Assembly: GCA_025356055.1 (NCBI GenBank) | Contig: JANXUU010000009.1 | Coordinates: 1 to 40,214 of the forward strand | DNA length: 40,214 nt | Source: Sphingomonas sp. | GTDB taxonomy: Bacteria > Pseudomonadota > Alphaproteobacteria > Sphingomonadales > Sphingomonadaceae | Direction: 5' to 3' | Part shown: one piece after another, positions 35,310-40,214 of the stretch | Layout: each line of letters starts with the position of its first letter | Numbering within the stretch: position 1 is the first letter of the stretch | The notes under the pieces: model-generated | The model's input: the letters and a program-made list of their open reading frames with translations, nothing else | What the model was told of the DNA's origin: nothing | The model's database searches: none | Made by a program: the position numbers and the translations under genes

Positions 35310-37174
35310 GCGGCGATGCTCTCCAGCTCGTCATTCGCCTCGAGCCACAGCGCCTCGGCAGTGACGAGGTCGGCGGCGATCTTTGCGCGGCGGCTCGACA
35401 GCTCGCTCATCGGCAATTTTGCGAGGTCGGGCGCGGCACTGGCAGGGTCGAACATCGCCTGGTCGAGCGCGGAGCAAAGCGCGGCAAGGCGCTCGGACGC
35501 AGCCTCAGCCTCGGCGGCTTTCTTGCGGAGCTCCTTCTCCTCGTCGCGCGCCTTTGCGGCGGCCTTCTTGTCCGCTTTAGCCGGCTTGGCCCTGGCCTCC
35601 ACCTTCGGCTGGTTCCGGCCGAGCACGAAGTCGATATAATCGTCGATCGAGCCGGCATAGTCCTGCGCCCGTCCGTCCTCGACCAGCACCAGCCGGTCGG
35701 CGGTCAGTTCGACCATGTGGCGGTCATGGCTGACCAGAATAACGGCGCCGTCATAGCCGTTGAGCGCCTGGACGAGCGCCTCGCGGCTGTCGACGTCGAG
35801 ATGGTTGGTCGGCTCGTCGAGGATCAGCAAATGCGGCGCGTCACGCGTGATCAGCGCCAACGCCAGCCGCGCCCGCTCGCCGCCCGACAGTTTCGCGACC
35901 TTGGTCGTCGCCTTGTCGCCCAAGAAGCCAAACCGCCCCAGCTGGCCACGCACGGCGCCCGGGGTCATGCCTTTCATCAGCCGCGTCATATGCTCGATCG
36001 GCGTGTCGTCGCCGTGGAGTTCCTCGACTTGGTACTGGGTGAAATAACCGACGCGCATCTTGTTCGTGGAGTGCATCTCGCCCTCCATCGGCGCGAGCTG
36101 CGCGGCGAGAAGCCGGGCGAGCGTGGTCTTGCCGTTGCCGTTGCGCCCAAGCAGCGCGATGCGATCGTCGGGATCGATCCGCAGGTTCAATTTGCGCAGG
36201 ATCGGATTGCCGTCGGTGTAGCCGACCGCCGCCATGTCGAGCGTGATCAGCGGGGGCTTCAATTCGGTCGGGCTGGGAAAGTCGAAGCTCAGGCTCGGGT
36301 CATCCGCCATTGCCGCGATCGGCTGCATCTTGGCGAGCATCTTCGCCCGGCTCTGTGCCTGCTTGGCGGTCGAGGCGCGGGCCGAATTGCGCGCGATATA
36401 ATCCTGCAGCCGCGCACGCTGCGCATTCTGCGATGCCTGCGCCGCCGCGATCTGCGCCATCCGCTCAGCGCGCTGCCGCTCGAAACTGTCGTAGCCGCCG
36501 GCGTAAAGCGTGACCTTGCCGCCCTCCAGATGGAGGATCGTGTCGACGACATTGTTGAGCAGGTCGCGCTCGTGGCTGATCACCACCAGCGTGCCCGGAT
36601 AGGACTTCAGGAAATTCTCGAGCCACAGCGTCGCCTCGAGGTCGAGGTGGTTCGATGGCTCGTCGAGCAGCAGCACGTCGGGCTCAGAAAAGAGCAGCGC
36701 TGCGAGCGCAACACGCATTTTCCACCCGCCCGAGTAACTGTCGAGCGGCTGCCCCTGCATCGCCTCGTCGAATCCCAGCCCGATCAGGATCCGCGAAGCC
36801 CGCGCGTCGGCGGTATAAGCGTCGATCGCCAGCAGCCGGTCATAGACATGCCCCAACCGATCGGGATCATGGCAGCTCTCCGCCTCGGCCATCAGCGTGG
36901 CGCGCTCGGTGTCGGCGGCGAGCACGGTCTCGAACGGGGTGCTGGTCCCCGACGGCGCTTCCTGCGCGATATAGCCCAACCGCGTCTTCTTCGGCATTTC
37001 GATTTCGCCCTCGTCGGGGTCGAGTTGGCCGATCATCACTTTCATCAGGGTCGACTTGCCGGCGCCATTGCGACCGATCAGCCCGACCCGCGCGCCCGGC
37101 GGAATCGGGGCGGTGGCGCGGTCGAGGATCGTGCGCCCGCCAAGGCGTACCGTGATTCCGTTGATATTGAGCAT
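35306..37174 (-). CDS. ABC-F family ATPase (Uup/YheS-like)
   Basis: A 622-residue protein with two ABC ATPase domains and no membrane segments; ABC-F proteins act on ribosomes. Domain 1 has GRNGAGKST, DSYSGGWKMR and LLLDEPSNHLD. Domain 2 has GRNGNGKTT, KLSGGERARLA and LILDEPTNHLD. Between them is the interdomain linker (about 240-310, rich in A, Q, R). A charged C-terminal coiled coil (about 530-615) resembles that of Uup. The start at 37174 (MLNINGITVRL) has AGGGA seven bases upstream, which is one arm of a small hairpin. It lies 41 nt downstream of the ATP-grasp gene on the same strand, so it may be read from the same transcript. A housekeeping role is more likely than antibiotic resistance. 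Confidence 0.93.
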   Translation of the reverse strand: MLNINGITVRLGGRTILDRATAPIPPGARVGLIGRNGAGKSTLMKVMIGQLDPDEGEIEMPKKTRLGYIAQEAPSGTSTPFETVLAADTERATLMAEAESCHDPDRLGHVYDRLLAIDAYTADARASRILIGLGFDEAMQGQPLDSYSGGWKMRVALAALLFSEPDVLLLDEPSNHLDLEATLWLENFLKSYPGTLVVISHERDLLNNVVDTILHLEGGKVTLYAGGYDSFERQRAERMAQIAAAQASQNAQRARLQDYIARNSARASTAKQAQSRAKMLAKMQPIAAMADDPSLSFDFPSPTELKPPLITLDMAAVGYTDGNPILRKLNLRIDPDDRIALLGRNGNGKTTLARLLAAQLAPMEGEMHSTNKMRVGYFTQYQVEELHGDDTPIEHMTRLMKGMTPGAVRGQLGRFGFLGDKATTKVAKLSGGERARLALALITRDAPHLLILDEPTNHLDVDSREALVQALNGYDGAVILVSHDRHMVELTADRLVLVEDGRAQDYAGSIDDYIDFVLGRNQPKVEARAKPAKADKKAAAKARDEEKELRKKAAEAEAASERLAALCSALDQAMFDPASAAPDLAKLPMSELSSRRAKIAADLVTAEALWLEANDELESIAA

Positions 37175-37181
37175 GGCCTCG

Positions 37182-37194
37182 TCCCTAGCAGGGA
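37182..37194 (-). promoter_or_regulatory. Small hairpin covering the Shine-Dalgarno of the ABC-F gene
   Basis: On the minus strand TCCCT-GCT-AGGGA forms a 5-bp stem with a 3-nt loop. The AGGGA arm is the best ribosome-binding site for the start at 37174 (spacing 7). The hairpin would mask it in the free RNA. The stem is short, so its effect is uncertain. Confidence 0.35.
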
Positions 37195-37215
37195 ATCGTG
37201 GCGAAAGACAGGCGG

Positions 37216-38073
37216 CTAGTGGCGGCCGAGCGCGACCCGCGCCGCTTCCCATTTCGCGCCCAGCAGATCGTCGAGCGATACCGGGTCGAAGCGATCGAGC
37301 CCCGAGCCGGGATAGAGGCAATATTCGCCAAACAGCGGCTGACCCGGAAGGTCGTAGAAGTCGACGCGCAGGAAGTCATGACCCTGCCCCAACGCCTCTG
37401 CGGCAATGATCATCGCGTCGAGCATGCGCGGCGCAGGGACCTCGATTCCGTCCGAGAGACGATTCCAGTGGCGATCATATTGGACCCAGCGGTGAGTGCC
37501 TAGGCGATCGGTATGGACCTGCACAACCTCGGCGCGACCGTTGAAAACATATAACTTATAATCGTTCGGCAGCGCCCCATTCTCGCCGATGAACGGTTCC
37601 ACGAGCAGCCCCGGCTCGCTCTTCGAATAAAGCCATTCGTCGAGCCAATAGCCATAGCGCCTGGTCGTCCAGCTTCGGCTCCGCGCGAGCGCCTCGGGCC
37701 AATCGCTCGCCACGTCGCGGACGATCGCGAACTGATTGCAACCGTGGCTCGCCTTGATCACGAACGGAGTTGGCCACGGCGGCGTTTGCGGCGCCTCGGT
37801 CCCGCGCCACAGCGTCGGCACCACCCATTGCGCCCCCAGCCGACGAGTGACGATCTCCTTCGACGCGATCTTGTCGGTCATCGCGGCGAGCAGCAGGCTG
37901 CGTTCGTTGAGTTTGCGCCACTGGACCCACTCGGTGAACTTTTGCGGCGAGGCGAGGTCGGGAAAGCGACCGTGGCGCCACCAATAGGAGAGCGAGATCC
38001 GCAAGCGTGCAAGTGCGCCGCCCTTTGGGACCGTCGCTTCGCGCAGCAGCGACGGCGAGAAAACCGTCGCCAT
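37216..38073 (-). CDS. TupA-like ATP-grasp ligase
   Basis: A 285-residue protein of the TupA-like ATP-grasp family (first named in teichuronopeptide synthesis; members are predicted amide/peptide ligases in polymer and small-molecule clusters). Seen: SPQKFTEWVQWRKLN and TDKIASKEIV near the N-terminus, the ATP-site lysine in PFVIKASHGCNQ (K108), LLVEPFIGENG, DYKLYVFNGR and the metal-site region VDFYDLPGQPLFGEYCLYPGS (split by a loop). There is no signal or membrane segment, so it is cytoplasmic. The start shares one base with the DUF1989 stop (TGATG), tying it to that operon. The substrate is unknown; an amino acid or peptide is likely given the neighbouring permease. Confidence 0.85.
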   Translation of the reverse strand: MATVFSPSLLREATVPKGGALARLRISLSYWWRHGRFPDLASPQKFTEWVQWRKLNERSLLLAAMTDKIASKEIVTRRLGAQWVVPTLWRGTEAPQTPPWPTPFVIKASHGCNQFAIVRDVASDWPEALARSRSWTTRRYGYWLDEWLYSKSEPGLLVEPFIGENGALPNDYKLYVFNGRAEVVQVHTDRLGTHRWVQYDRHWNRLSDGIEVPAPRMLDAMIIAAEALGQGHDFLRVDFYDLPGQPLFGEYCLYPGSGLDRFDPVSLDDLLGAKWEAARVALGRH

Positions 38074-38654
38074 CAGTCGACTCGGTAGTGGATCGGCTTA
38101 AAACTGCCGTTATTCGACTGCAACGCCGAGCAAGCGGTCAGCCCGATGACGAGGTCCATCTTCGCCTCAAACACGATCGCATCCCCGGCCTTGCTCAGCG
38201 GCGCCTCGACCGTCAGCGCCCCGGTCTGGCCATCGACAGGCACGTTCATGAAGACGTTGAACGCGGTCGGGATCATGTCCTCGGTCACGCCATAAGGTGC
38301 CAGCGCGGCGGCGAGGTTGCCGAAGCAGCCTCGATGCGGGTCGGCGTCCCCGTAAATAATCCGGAACGTGTCCTTCGAGCAGGGGGTGAGCAGGAAATCA
38401 TGCCGCCCGACATCGTCGGCGACGATTTCCAGCATGACATTGCTGCGGTTCGAATAAAGCAAGTCTCCGGTCGTGAGGTAGATCTTGCTGGCATAATCGA
38501 GCGTTCGCCCGCTCGATACGACCTCGCCGATGTCGTGGCGGTTGAACGCTAGCAGGTCGGCGACCTGTTGCCCGAGCGGGTCGATGACAGTGAGGGTTTG
38601 CCCTTTGTCGATTGCGAAGGCCACGCCGGTGCGCGGCGCGATTTCAATCGTCAT
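38073..38654 (-). CDS. DUF1989 / urea-carboxylase-associated family protein
   Basis: A 193-residue protein of DUF1989, long annotated as urea-carboxylase-associated. Characterised relatives (CgdA/CgdB) form a carboxyguanidine deiminase in guanidine breakdown. Seen: GQTLTVIDPLGQQVADLLAF, LYSNRSNVMLEIVAD, a C/H/C cluster that could bind metal (C92 in LTPCSKDTF, H107 and C110 in DPHRGCFGN), NVFMNVPVDGQTG and a final TACSALQSN. The start at 38654 (MTIEIAPRTG) overlaps the preceding N-hydroxylase gene by 11 nt. Only one DUF1989 gene is present, whereas CgdA and CgdB act as a pair, and no carboxylase gene is visible, so the substrate may differ. Confidence 0.85.
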   Translation of the reverse strand: MTIEIAPRTGVAFAIDKGQTLTVIDPLGQQVADLLAFNRHDIGEVVSSGRTLDYASKIYLTTGDLLYSNRSNVMLEIVADDVGRHDFLLTPCSKDTFRIIYGDADPHRGCFGNLAAALAPYGVTEDMIPTAFNVFMNVPVDGQTGALTVEAPLSKAGDAIVFEAKMDLVIGLTACSALQSNNGSFKPIHYRVD

Positions 38655-39372
38655 TCGACGCGCGATCGAAGGCGAAAGCCGACCTGTCGTTTTCGCCCGA
38701 ACGCCCGCTGAACGGGCAGCGCCACTCTGCCCCGACCGCGCGCCCGCTATACTGGCGCGCCGACGAGATCGATCCGTGCTCCGCAAGCATGGGGTTCGGA
38801 GTCCCCGCCAGTGGCACGTCGCGTTGAAGTATCTTTTCGCTCAACTTGTCATATCGCCCCGCCTCGCGCAGTTGTTCGAACTGATCGTGAAGGTTGAACA
38901 CCATCGCCGGCGTGTCGAACCGACGCGCCGGGCGGCTTGCATTTGGGTGAAGGCCGACAACGAAGAAAGCCTCGCCACCGAAACTCATCGCGAAATGAGG
39001 ATCGCCGGGATCATGAGAAACGCGCGGATCGGCCGGCTGTCCAAGCCATTCGTCCTTGTCGGTCAGCGACTGAAGACGCTTCCACAGCTGCGTTTCAAAC
39101 CCGGCCTCGTCATCGGGAGTGCCGATTTCGAACAGCACGACAAGCGACTGGAACAGCGCGGGCTCGGCGCGATAGCTCTGCGCGAGGTCGAGCAGCGACG
39201 GCAGGATGCGCAGATCGTCCCACGCCGAGCGGAAATCCCGCGCAACGACGAACCGCATTCCGTCCCGGTTGAGCGCAGCCTTCGCGCCGACGCACGGGAA
39301 ACCGACATCGCCGACAAATCGGCGAAACCGCTCGGTGAGCGGATGGTCGAGATCGTTGGCAGGGCGAAGCAT
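38644..39372 (-). CDS. YqcI/YcgG (GntA/DcsA-type) haem-dependent N-hydroxylase
   Basis: A 242-residue protein with the full YqcI/YcgG signature: FPCVGAKAAL (26-35), SHDPGDPHFAMSFGGEAFFV (from 119), GLHPNASRPARRF (140-152), VFNLHDQFEQLR (158-169), GTPNPMLAEHGS (190-201), ARQYSGR and WRCPF (217-221). Characterised members, GntA (guanitoxin) and DcsA (D-cycloserine), are haem proteins that hydroxylate a guanidine nitrogen. About 20 residues follow the conserved CPF end and overlap the DUF1989 start by 11 nt. The ATG at 39372 is used; a TTG at 39381 is possible. It lies 39 nt downstream of the permease. Function is inferred from family; substrate unknown. Confidence 0.88.
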   Translation of the reverse strand: MLRPANDLDHPLTERFRRFVGDVGFPCVGAKAALNRDGMRFVVARDFRSAWDDLRILPSLLDLAQSYRAEPALFQSLVVLFEIGTPDDEAGFETQLWKRLQSLTDKDEWLGQPADPRVSHDPGDPHFAMSFGGEAFFVVGLHPNASRPARRFDTPAMVFNLHDQFEQLREAGRYDKLSEKILQRDVPLAGTPNPMLAEHGSISSARQYSGRAVGAEWRCPFSGRSGENDRSAFAFDRASNDD

Positions 39373-39411
39373 CGCCAACAAAAACGGCGCATCCGGCGAA
39401 AAGGTTGCGAT

Positions 39412-40214
39412 TCAGGTGGCGATTTTGTGCGGACGGCGGCTCATTAAAAGTCCGATCGGCACTACGATCGCGATCGCCCCGATAATGAACAGCCCGCTTT
39501 TCGGGTCGGCGATCACGAAGCCGCTCAGCAGCCCGGCGTCGAGCACGATCGCGAGCGCTGGCAACCACGGATACAACCGCGCACGCCACGGTCTGCCCAA
39601 GTCCGGCCGGTCGCGCCTGAGCTTGAACAGAGACAATTCCACGACCAGCGTCAGCACGATACCAAGCGCCGCCATGATCACGAACACCGTCTCGAAGCTT
39701 CCGGTGAGAACCAGCCCAAGCGCCGCAATGAAGGTCATCGCCAACGCAACCCAGGGCGACCCGCCGCGATTGACCCGGCCGGCGACCGAAGGAAATAATC
39801 GGTCTTCGGCCAAAGCGTAAAGAACCCGCGATGCAACCATCACGCCGGCATTGCAGCACGTGATCACGATCAACGCCGCGCCGGCCGCGACCAGCCTGAC
39901 CGCGTCGGGGCCGAGCAGCGGCGTCAGCGCATCGGCGATCGGCAGCTTGGACTGGCGAAGCTTGGCCAGAGACAAGGCATGGTTCAGCGCGAAGGTGACG
40001 AGGATGAAGAGCAGGCCCGTCGTCAGGATGGTAGTAAAAATAGCGCGCGGAATATTGCGCCCCGGATCGACGTCTTCACCGCCAAAATAGGCGCCATTGG
40101 GCCAGCCAGCGTAGGCACCAATGATCGTCTGGTAAGCGATCACCAACGCTGCGAAGCCAAATGGAGCGGTCGTCACCGCAGCCGACAAGTCTGACTTCGC
40201 CATCGGCGCCGCCG
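39412..40214 (-). CDS. APC-family amino-acid permease, C-terminal part (5' end outside window)
   Basis: The frame is open to the window edge; about 267 residues of the C-terminal part are present. It has about six to seven membrane helices and the APC loop GAYFGGEDVDPGRNIPRAIF, typical of amino-acid/polyamine permeases (H+ symport or exchange at the inner membrane). CCNAGVMVASRVLYALAEDRLFP is another APC signature (split here by helix boundaries). It ends 39 nt before the N-hydroxylase gene, so it may supply that enzyme's amino-acid substrate. The ATG at 40203 is internal to the gene, because the normal protein has about 430 residues or more. Confidence 0.88.
   Translation of the reverse strand, partial: AAPMAKSDLSAAVTTAPFGFAALVIAYQTIIGAYAGWPNGAYFGGEDVDPGRNIPRAIFTTILTTGLLFILVTFALNHALSLAKLRQSKLPIADALTPLLGPDAVRLVAAGAALIVITCCNAGVMVASRVLYALAEDRLFPSVAGRVNRGGSPWVALAMTFIAALGLVLTGSFETVFVIMAALGIVLTLVVELSLFKLRRDRPDLGRPWRARLYPWLPALAIVLDAGLLSGFVIADPKSGLFIIGAIAIVVPIGLLMSRRPHKIAT

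Follow-up and report, generated by a model that had tools for sequence, protein, structure and literature searches.

The present analysis concerns a group of genes located at the end of a 40,214-nt stretch of DNA from Sphingomonas sp. (contig JANXUU010000009.1 of assembly GCA_025356055.1), and in particular a YqcI/YcgG-family gene (named Y) and the DUF1989 gene directly behind it (named D). The whole stretch, referred to as the window, represents one entire contig out of the 157 that make up the 2.52-Mb assembly. The contig ends at position 40214, being 842 nt upstream of Y, and genes upstream of the permease gene found at this end are therefore not readable. The following features are present:

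39412-40212, minus strand: amino-acid permease gene, C-terminal part only (PF00324 / PF13520, above Pfam cut-offs)
39408-39383, minus strand: sigma-EcfG-type promoter motif GCAAC-N17-CGTT, between the permease gene and Y (pattern scan)
38644-39372, minus strand: Y, YqcI/YcgG-family gene, 242 aa (PF08892, 178.8 bits versus a cut-off of 27)
38073-38654, minus strand: D, DUF1989 gene, 193 aa, one domain (PF09347, 195.5 bits)
37216-38073, minus strand: T, TupA-like ATP-grasp gene, 285 aa (PF14305, 86.5 bits versus a cut-off of 25)

An initial annotation of this DNA described four closely packed minus-strand genes, and both the coordinates and the Pfam scores agree with that description: the permease/Y, Y/D and D/T junctions measure 39 nt, -11 nt and -1 nt, respectively, and all four encoded proteins score above the Pfam cut-offs in a profile search. 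The permease gene runs off the contig end, its product covering positions 184-372 of the 470 positions of the AA_permease profile.

Conservation of the Y-D gene pair

The occurrence of these genes was determined in three sets of sequences. The Sphingomonadales sample comprised 296 genomes, PF08892 being present in 89, and its 96 match stretches together with the window provide 97 loci. A homologue of the window Y is found in 96 of these (locus L107, described below, being the exception), that of locus L111 being a distant one with 32% identity, and in 85 of the 96 Y is followed immediately by D in the same orientation. Within a set of named loci, representing the best 80 of at least 550 confirmed relatives, D adjoins Y in 61. 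The third sample consisted of 398 Pseudomonadota genomes, searched with a profile specific to the D subfamily (A2) at an E limit of 1e-30 and with at most 8 candidates scored per genome. PF08892 occurs in 22 of these genomes (23 genes), while profile A2 retrieved 22 matches of 282-351 bits, the next best match scoring 158 bits; when the two lists were compared by hand, the Y-bearing and the D-subfamily-bearing genomes proved to be the same 22 of 398. Every one of these genomes has D following Y in the same orientation; they include two families outside the Alphaproteobacteria (f45 and f48), and the sole unpaired Y of this set is a second copy (G442:C2). Y and D overlap or abut in 112 of 146 adjacent pairs, most commonly with an overlap of 4 or 11 nt, and the distances of the two proteins correlate (r 0.75 for 144 different pairs, with none of 1000 permutations giving a value as high). 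These data argue strongly that Y and D constitute an exclusive, fixed and usually overlapping two-gene pair, beyond what is expected by chance.

The pair also occurs on plasmids. Among 22 plasmid records with a Y match, nine were inspected; D adjoins Y in six of these (Chryseobacterium, Deinococcus, Hymenobacter, Comamonas endophytica, Sphingomonas and Skermanella) and is not annotated beside Y in the other three (Rahnella and two of Streptomyces), so that the plasmid-borne pairs reach the Bacteroidota, the Deinococcota and the Betaproteobacteria. In the Hymenobacter plasmid (NZ_CP095062.1) a DUF1989 frame missing from the gene table is located directly behind the gene annotated as gntA (L211:6680-7162), its product being 60% identical to the window D. 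Compared with the window copies, the proteins of the four paired plasmids from outside the Alphaproteobacteria show identities of 53-60% for D and 34-43% for Y. The Y gene carries a guanitoxin label in all six inspected D-paired plasmid records; considering that Y is bound to D in these records, this label is not to be taken as an indication of the pathway, and the automatic designation "GntA, guanitoxin" is probably misleading for Y. As a separate observation, the conjugative plasmid of Rahnella sikkimica carries a Y homologue as the first gene of a six-gene run without DUF1989 (L210:5989-11274), together with genes for SDR, 2Fe-2S, LysE-type, PheT-related and MOSC proteins, which perhaps represents a different N-hydroxylation cluster.

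The ATP-grasp gene and the permease gene are less constant companions. T is located behind Y-D on the same strand in nine of the 96 Sphingomonadales loci, the window included, and three of the 80 named loci also carry it behind Y in this orientation. At an E limit of 1e-20, T was detected at 29 places in 28 of the 296 Sphingomonadales genomes, nine of these places being behind Y-D. Of the 20 other places, 17 were inspected and the gene was called as T in 13; these shared no constant neighbour, except within two pairs of related genomes. In a FastTree phylogeny built from 179 Y rows, at least six changes of the T state and 11 of the D state are required, and the three rows nearest to the window (L132, L090 and L133) carry T. 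The state changes of T, together with its occurrence away from Y-D without a constant neighbour, suggest that T is an optional third gene which has been gained or lost several times. The permease was rejected as a member of the module, a homologue being found near Y in only one of the 96 loci, namely the window itself; since, in addition, an EcfG-type motif lies between the two genes, the membership of the permease, and hence an import step, is unsupported, and the permease gene is probably a separate gene. The four-gene operon of the initial annotation is thus retained in part: the linkage of Y to D recurs among relatives, as does the arrangement Y-D-T, while the conserved co-occurrence does not extend to the permease. 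Conservation covers fewer genes than the operon originally described, and neither the stress-type promoter motif nor the exclusiveness of the Y-D pair formed part of that annotation.

Two further associations were considered and rejected. A homologue of cphA is present within the stretch in eight of 186 loci (L087, six of Sphingopyxis and the Chryseobacterium plasmid); in three Sphingopyxis loci (L137, L142 and L145) a Y without D adjoins genes for cyanophycinase, an isoaspartyl-peptidase-like protein and cyanophycin synthetase, and on the Chryseobacterium plasmid cphA is located two genes away from Y-D. This cyanophycin link was judged to reflect shared synteny. A homologue of egtD occurs in nine of 186 loci, and an ergothioneine link was judged to be stress-island company. 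In Methylobacterium sp. 2A (L205:6001-8664) a Y without D is closely followed by two methyltransferase genes, one of them encoding an EgtD-type histidine methyltransferase.

Predicted properties of the Y and D proteins

Y is predicted to be a haem-thiolate guanidine N-hydroxylase with Cys27, located in the motif FPCVGAK, as the candidate haem ligand. The protein has the sandwich fold of AglA, whose fold and residue features have been described (PMC12866846, in part), and the Phe pair which clamps arginine in AglA is present in Y. Cys27 is conserved in 185 of 185 Y homologues; its equation with Cys44 of AglA is based on motif and fold and not on a printed alignment. The earlier assignment of Y to the guanidine N-hydroxylase type fits both the fold and the key residues, its function being a predicted one. 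A profile search with A1 recovered AglA at an E value of 0.13 only, and AglA was not among the matches of a search started from a Streptomyces homologue. Y scores above the NCBIfam equivalog cut-off for GntA (235.6 versus 145 bits). No other guanitoxin genes were recognised among the profiled window neighbours, for which no aimed search was made and where the contig ends 842 nt upstream, and the genome has a single arginase-family (PF00491) gene, located on another contig (G000:C33:3450-4253) and unlinked to Y. Low-Z structure matches hinted that Y might be homologous to nitric oxide synthase (NOS); hhalign with two NOS proteins gave no support for this, and the idea is retained as a lead.

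Two side observations concern these enzyme families. At locus L107 (L107:8108-18001, on G013:C12), from another family of the Sphingomonadales, a YcgG domain forms the N-terminus of a protein, at least 3297 aa long, which also contains condensation, adenylation, ketosynthase, acyltransferase, ketoreductase and thioesterase domains; this is a hydroxylase built into a hybrid of non-ribosomal peptide synthetase and polyketide synthase. Furthermore, at L236:77-2682 and L237:1363-4028, in two families of Alphaproteobacteria with one of the genomes belonging to the Sphingomonadaceae, a bacterial NOS gene overlaps a gene of radical-SAM appearance, the gene order being identical at both, and these could be NOS-containing biosynthetic loci.

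D, which has the DUF1989 fold, is predicted to be a metal enzyme of a DUF1989 subfamily that is tied to Y. Its residues C92, C110, C175, D33 and H107 are conserved in 154-158 of 158 homologues, the Cys residues of the zinc triad being retained in 158 (C92), 158 (C110) and 157 (C175) of these, and the triad aligns to C263, C279 and C343 of the trimethylamine N-oxide (TMAO) demethylase Tdm. D scores below the cut-offs for the carboxyguanidine deiminases TIGR03424 and TIGR03425 (123 versus 284.7 and 76.6 versus 205.95 bits, respectively) and below the NCBIfam cut-off for TMAO demethylase (80.8 versus 1100 bits).

A sigma-EcfG-type promoter motif upstream of Y

The window motif begins 3 nt behind the stop codon of the permease gene and 36 nt before the start codon of Y. 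Promoters of sigma-EcfG in Sphingopyxis granuli have the form GGAAC-N16-CGTT, with GGAAC and GCAAC being the commonest -35 boxes (PMC7083833, in part), and those of Sphingomonas melonis the form GGAAC-N17-20-GTT (PMC6599016, in part). The GGAAC forms gave no site in the window, the window site being obtained with the GCAAC form that was added afterwards. Four pattern forms were scanned for in the region of up to 200 nt upstream of Y, and the counts were compared with those for the remaining first genes in these stretches. The frequencies are listed below, those of the named loci not being independent since this set contains many related Methylobacterium:

GGAAC-CGTT: Sphingomonadales 12/96 versus 11/1010 controls (p 5.7e-8); named loci 8/80 versus 9/580 (p 3.3e-4)
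G[GC]AAC-CGTT: Sphingomonadales 18/96 versus 22/1010 controls (p 3.9e-10); named loci 12/80 versus 25/580 (p 6.6e-4)
GGAAC-nGTT: Sphingomonadales 19/96 versus 27/1010 controls (p 7.3e-10); named loci 38/80 versus 23/580 (p 8.3e-24)
G[GC]AAC-nGTT: Sphingomonadales 27/96 versus 41/1010 controls (p 2.5e-13); named loci 53/80 versus 49/580 (p 7.8e-30)

Other scans restricted to GGAAC pointed in the same direction, and in 10 of 18 Sphingomonadales sites the distance from the motif start to Y is 34-37 nt. Among the 13 loci of the phylum set that were scanned, a site is present in three of eight from the Alphaproteobacteria and in none of the five from outside this class. A sigma-70 scan of positions 37100-40214 returned two promoter-like sites (0.3 expected) and three terminator-like sites (2.9 expected), with no promoter-like site before Y on its strand. 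No Rfam match at gathering scores, guanidine riboswitches included, was found in 12 sources, and a guanidine riboswitch at Y-D was accordingly rejected. The window genome carries two genes for NepR, which is the anti-sigma factor of the EcfG general stress system. In 87 loci the neighbourhood of Y was found to include a Crp-type regulator in 18 and three glycosyltransferase clusters in 12, 9 and 11. In at least some of the Alphaproteobacteria, the Y-D pair appears to be tied to the general stress response.

Proposed pathway, alternatives and relation to known systems

The reading we favour, with moderate confidence, is that Y and D form a stress-linked two-step module in which Y N-hydroxylates a guanidino compound and the metal-dependent DUF1989 enzyme D takes the product. 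Sigma-EcfG would transcribe Y-D (and T) under stress; Y, holding haem by means of Cys27, would use O2 to N-hydroxylate a small substrate with a guanidino group, most likely arginine or one of its derivatives; D would then break a C-N bond in the N-hydroxy product; and T, where present as in the window, may condense the product with another molecule. Several observations weigh against this module. D is located elsewhere in the stretch in four and was not found in seven of the 96 Sphingomonadales loci, the corresponding numbers among the 80 named loci being two and 17, and these Y loci without D imply that some Y proteins act without an adjacent D. Shared descent alone contributes to the correlation between Y and D distances. 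No site of even the loosest motif form is present in 69 of the 96 Sphingomonadales loci, and YcgG is unmentioned in the main texts, supplements not being covered, of the EcfG regulon papers on S. melonis, S. granuli and M. extorquens. Finally, the AglA contacts Q177 and R179 correspond to N160 and H162 in Y, indicating that the substrate of Y differs from that of AglA.

The alternatives differ in what they assign to D and to the flanking genes. The four-gene route of the initial annotation, in which Y would N-hydroxylate an amino acid taken up from outside, D would process the product and T would ligate it to give an N-hydroxy compound, accords with the close packing in the window, with the nine loci having T behind Y-D and with the T-bearing rows nearest to the window on the Y tree; it is nevertheless unlikely, as the permease is near Y in the window only and is separated from it by a stress-type motif, and as most Y-D loci lack T, which occurs alone in other genomes. 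It is also rather unlikely that the pair acts as a two-enzyme counterpart of NOS, Y making an N-hydroxyguanidine which D splits to hydroxylamine, HNO, NO or hydroxyurea; the broader proposal, that such a counterpart is widespread and stress-induced, with reactive nitrogen species or hydroxyurea aiding stress survival, we consider improbable. A decidedly unlikely reading has Y acting on a methylated amine or guanidine by oxidation of the nitrogen, after which D would remove the methyl group as formaldehyde. It draws on the TMAO demethylase, a protein with a DUF1989 domain that splits an N-oxide (PMC12560246, in part), with which D aligns while retaining the zinc ligands and the equivalents of D198 and H276; however, D, with its 193 aa and its score far below the cut-off, has no GCV_T domain, D346 is not kept, and Tdm shows no activity when reduced to its N-terminal part (PMC12560246, in part). 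A role in detoxifying guanidine or assimilating nitrogen, in which D would be a relative of carboxyguanidine deiminase, is highly improbable: CgdA/B are DUF1989 proteins (PMC11271267 and PMC11410670, both in part) and several plasmid records call D "urea carboxylase-associated", but D falls below both Cgd cut-offs, the window carries one DUF1989 gene instead of two subunits, and the Rfam search of 12 sources returned no guanidine riboswitch.

In the literature searched, subscription journals and supplements being outside its scope, no paper was found that combines YcgG and DUF1989 or that joins EcfG, the general stress response and hydroxyarginine, and no description of the pair was found by title under DUF1989, YcgG/YqcI, COG3403/COG3665 or the automatic gene names. 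Y-D looks like a small stress pathway not described before. If the two-step module is true, it implies an undescribed stress metabolite and predicts a third DUF1989 activity, for which a simple two-protein assay is possible, and it cautions against equating the automatic label "guanitoxin biosynthesis GntA" with guanitoxin.

With respect to known systems, D shares family and fold with CgdA/CgdB, being distinguished from these as a single gene bound to Y; with Tdm, which combines DUF1989 and GCV_T domains, it has in common the zinc triad plus Asp and His, and differs in lacking the GCV_T domain and in not retaining D346. Y belongs to the same family as GntA (guanitoxin) and DcsA (D-cycloserine), its neighbour being D. 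Of the dedicated arginase-like partner expected beside the hydroxylase in a DcsA/DcsB cycloserine route, none was recognised next to Y, where the contig ends 842 nt upstream. AglA of argolaphos biosynthesis (PDB 9ub3 and 9ubb), a YqcI/YcgG haem N-hydroxylase to which Y is approximately 21% identical, is partnered by a phosphonate pathway, whereas the partner of Y is D. Regarding the sigma-EcfG general stress regulon, its promoter motif is found at the usual place upstream of Y, and the main-text EcfG table of S. melonis contains genes described as Crp-type regulator or glycosyltransferase, a likeness to the neighbours of Y by name only. The characterised YqcI/YcgG enzymes are six in number and have all been placed in natural-product pathways (PMC12866846, in part); the family would here be encountered in a new setting, fixed to one DUF1989 subfamily and tied to the general stress response.

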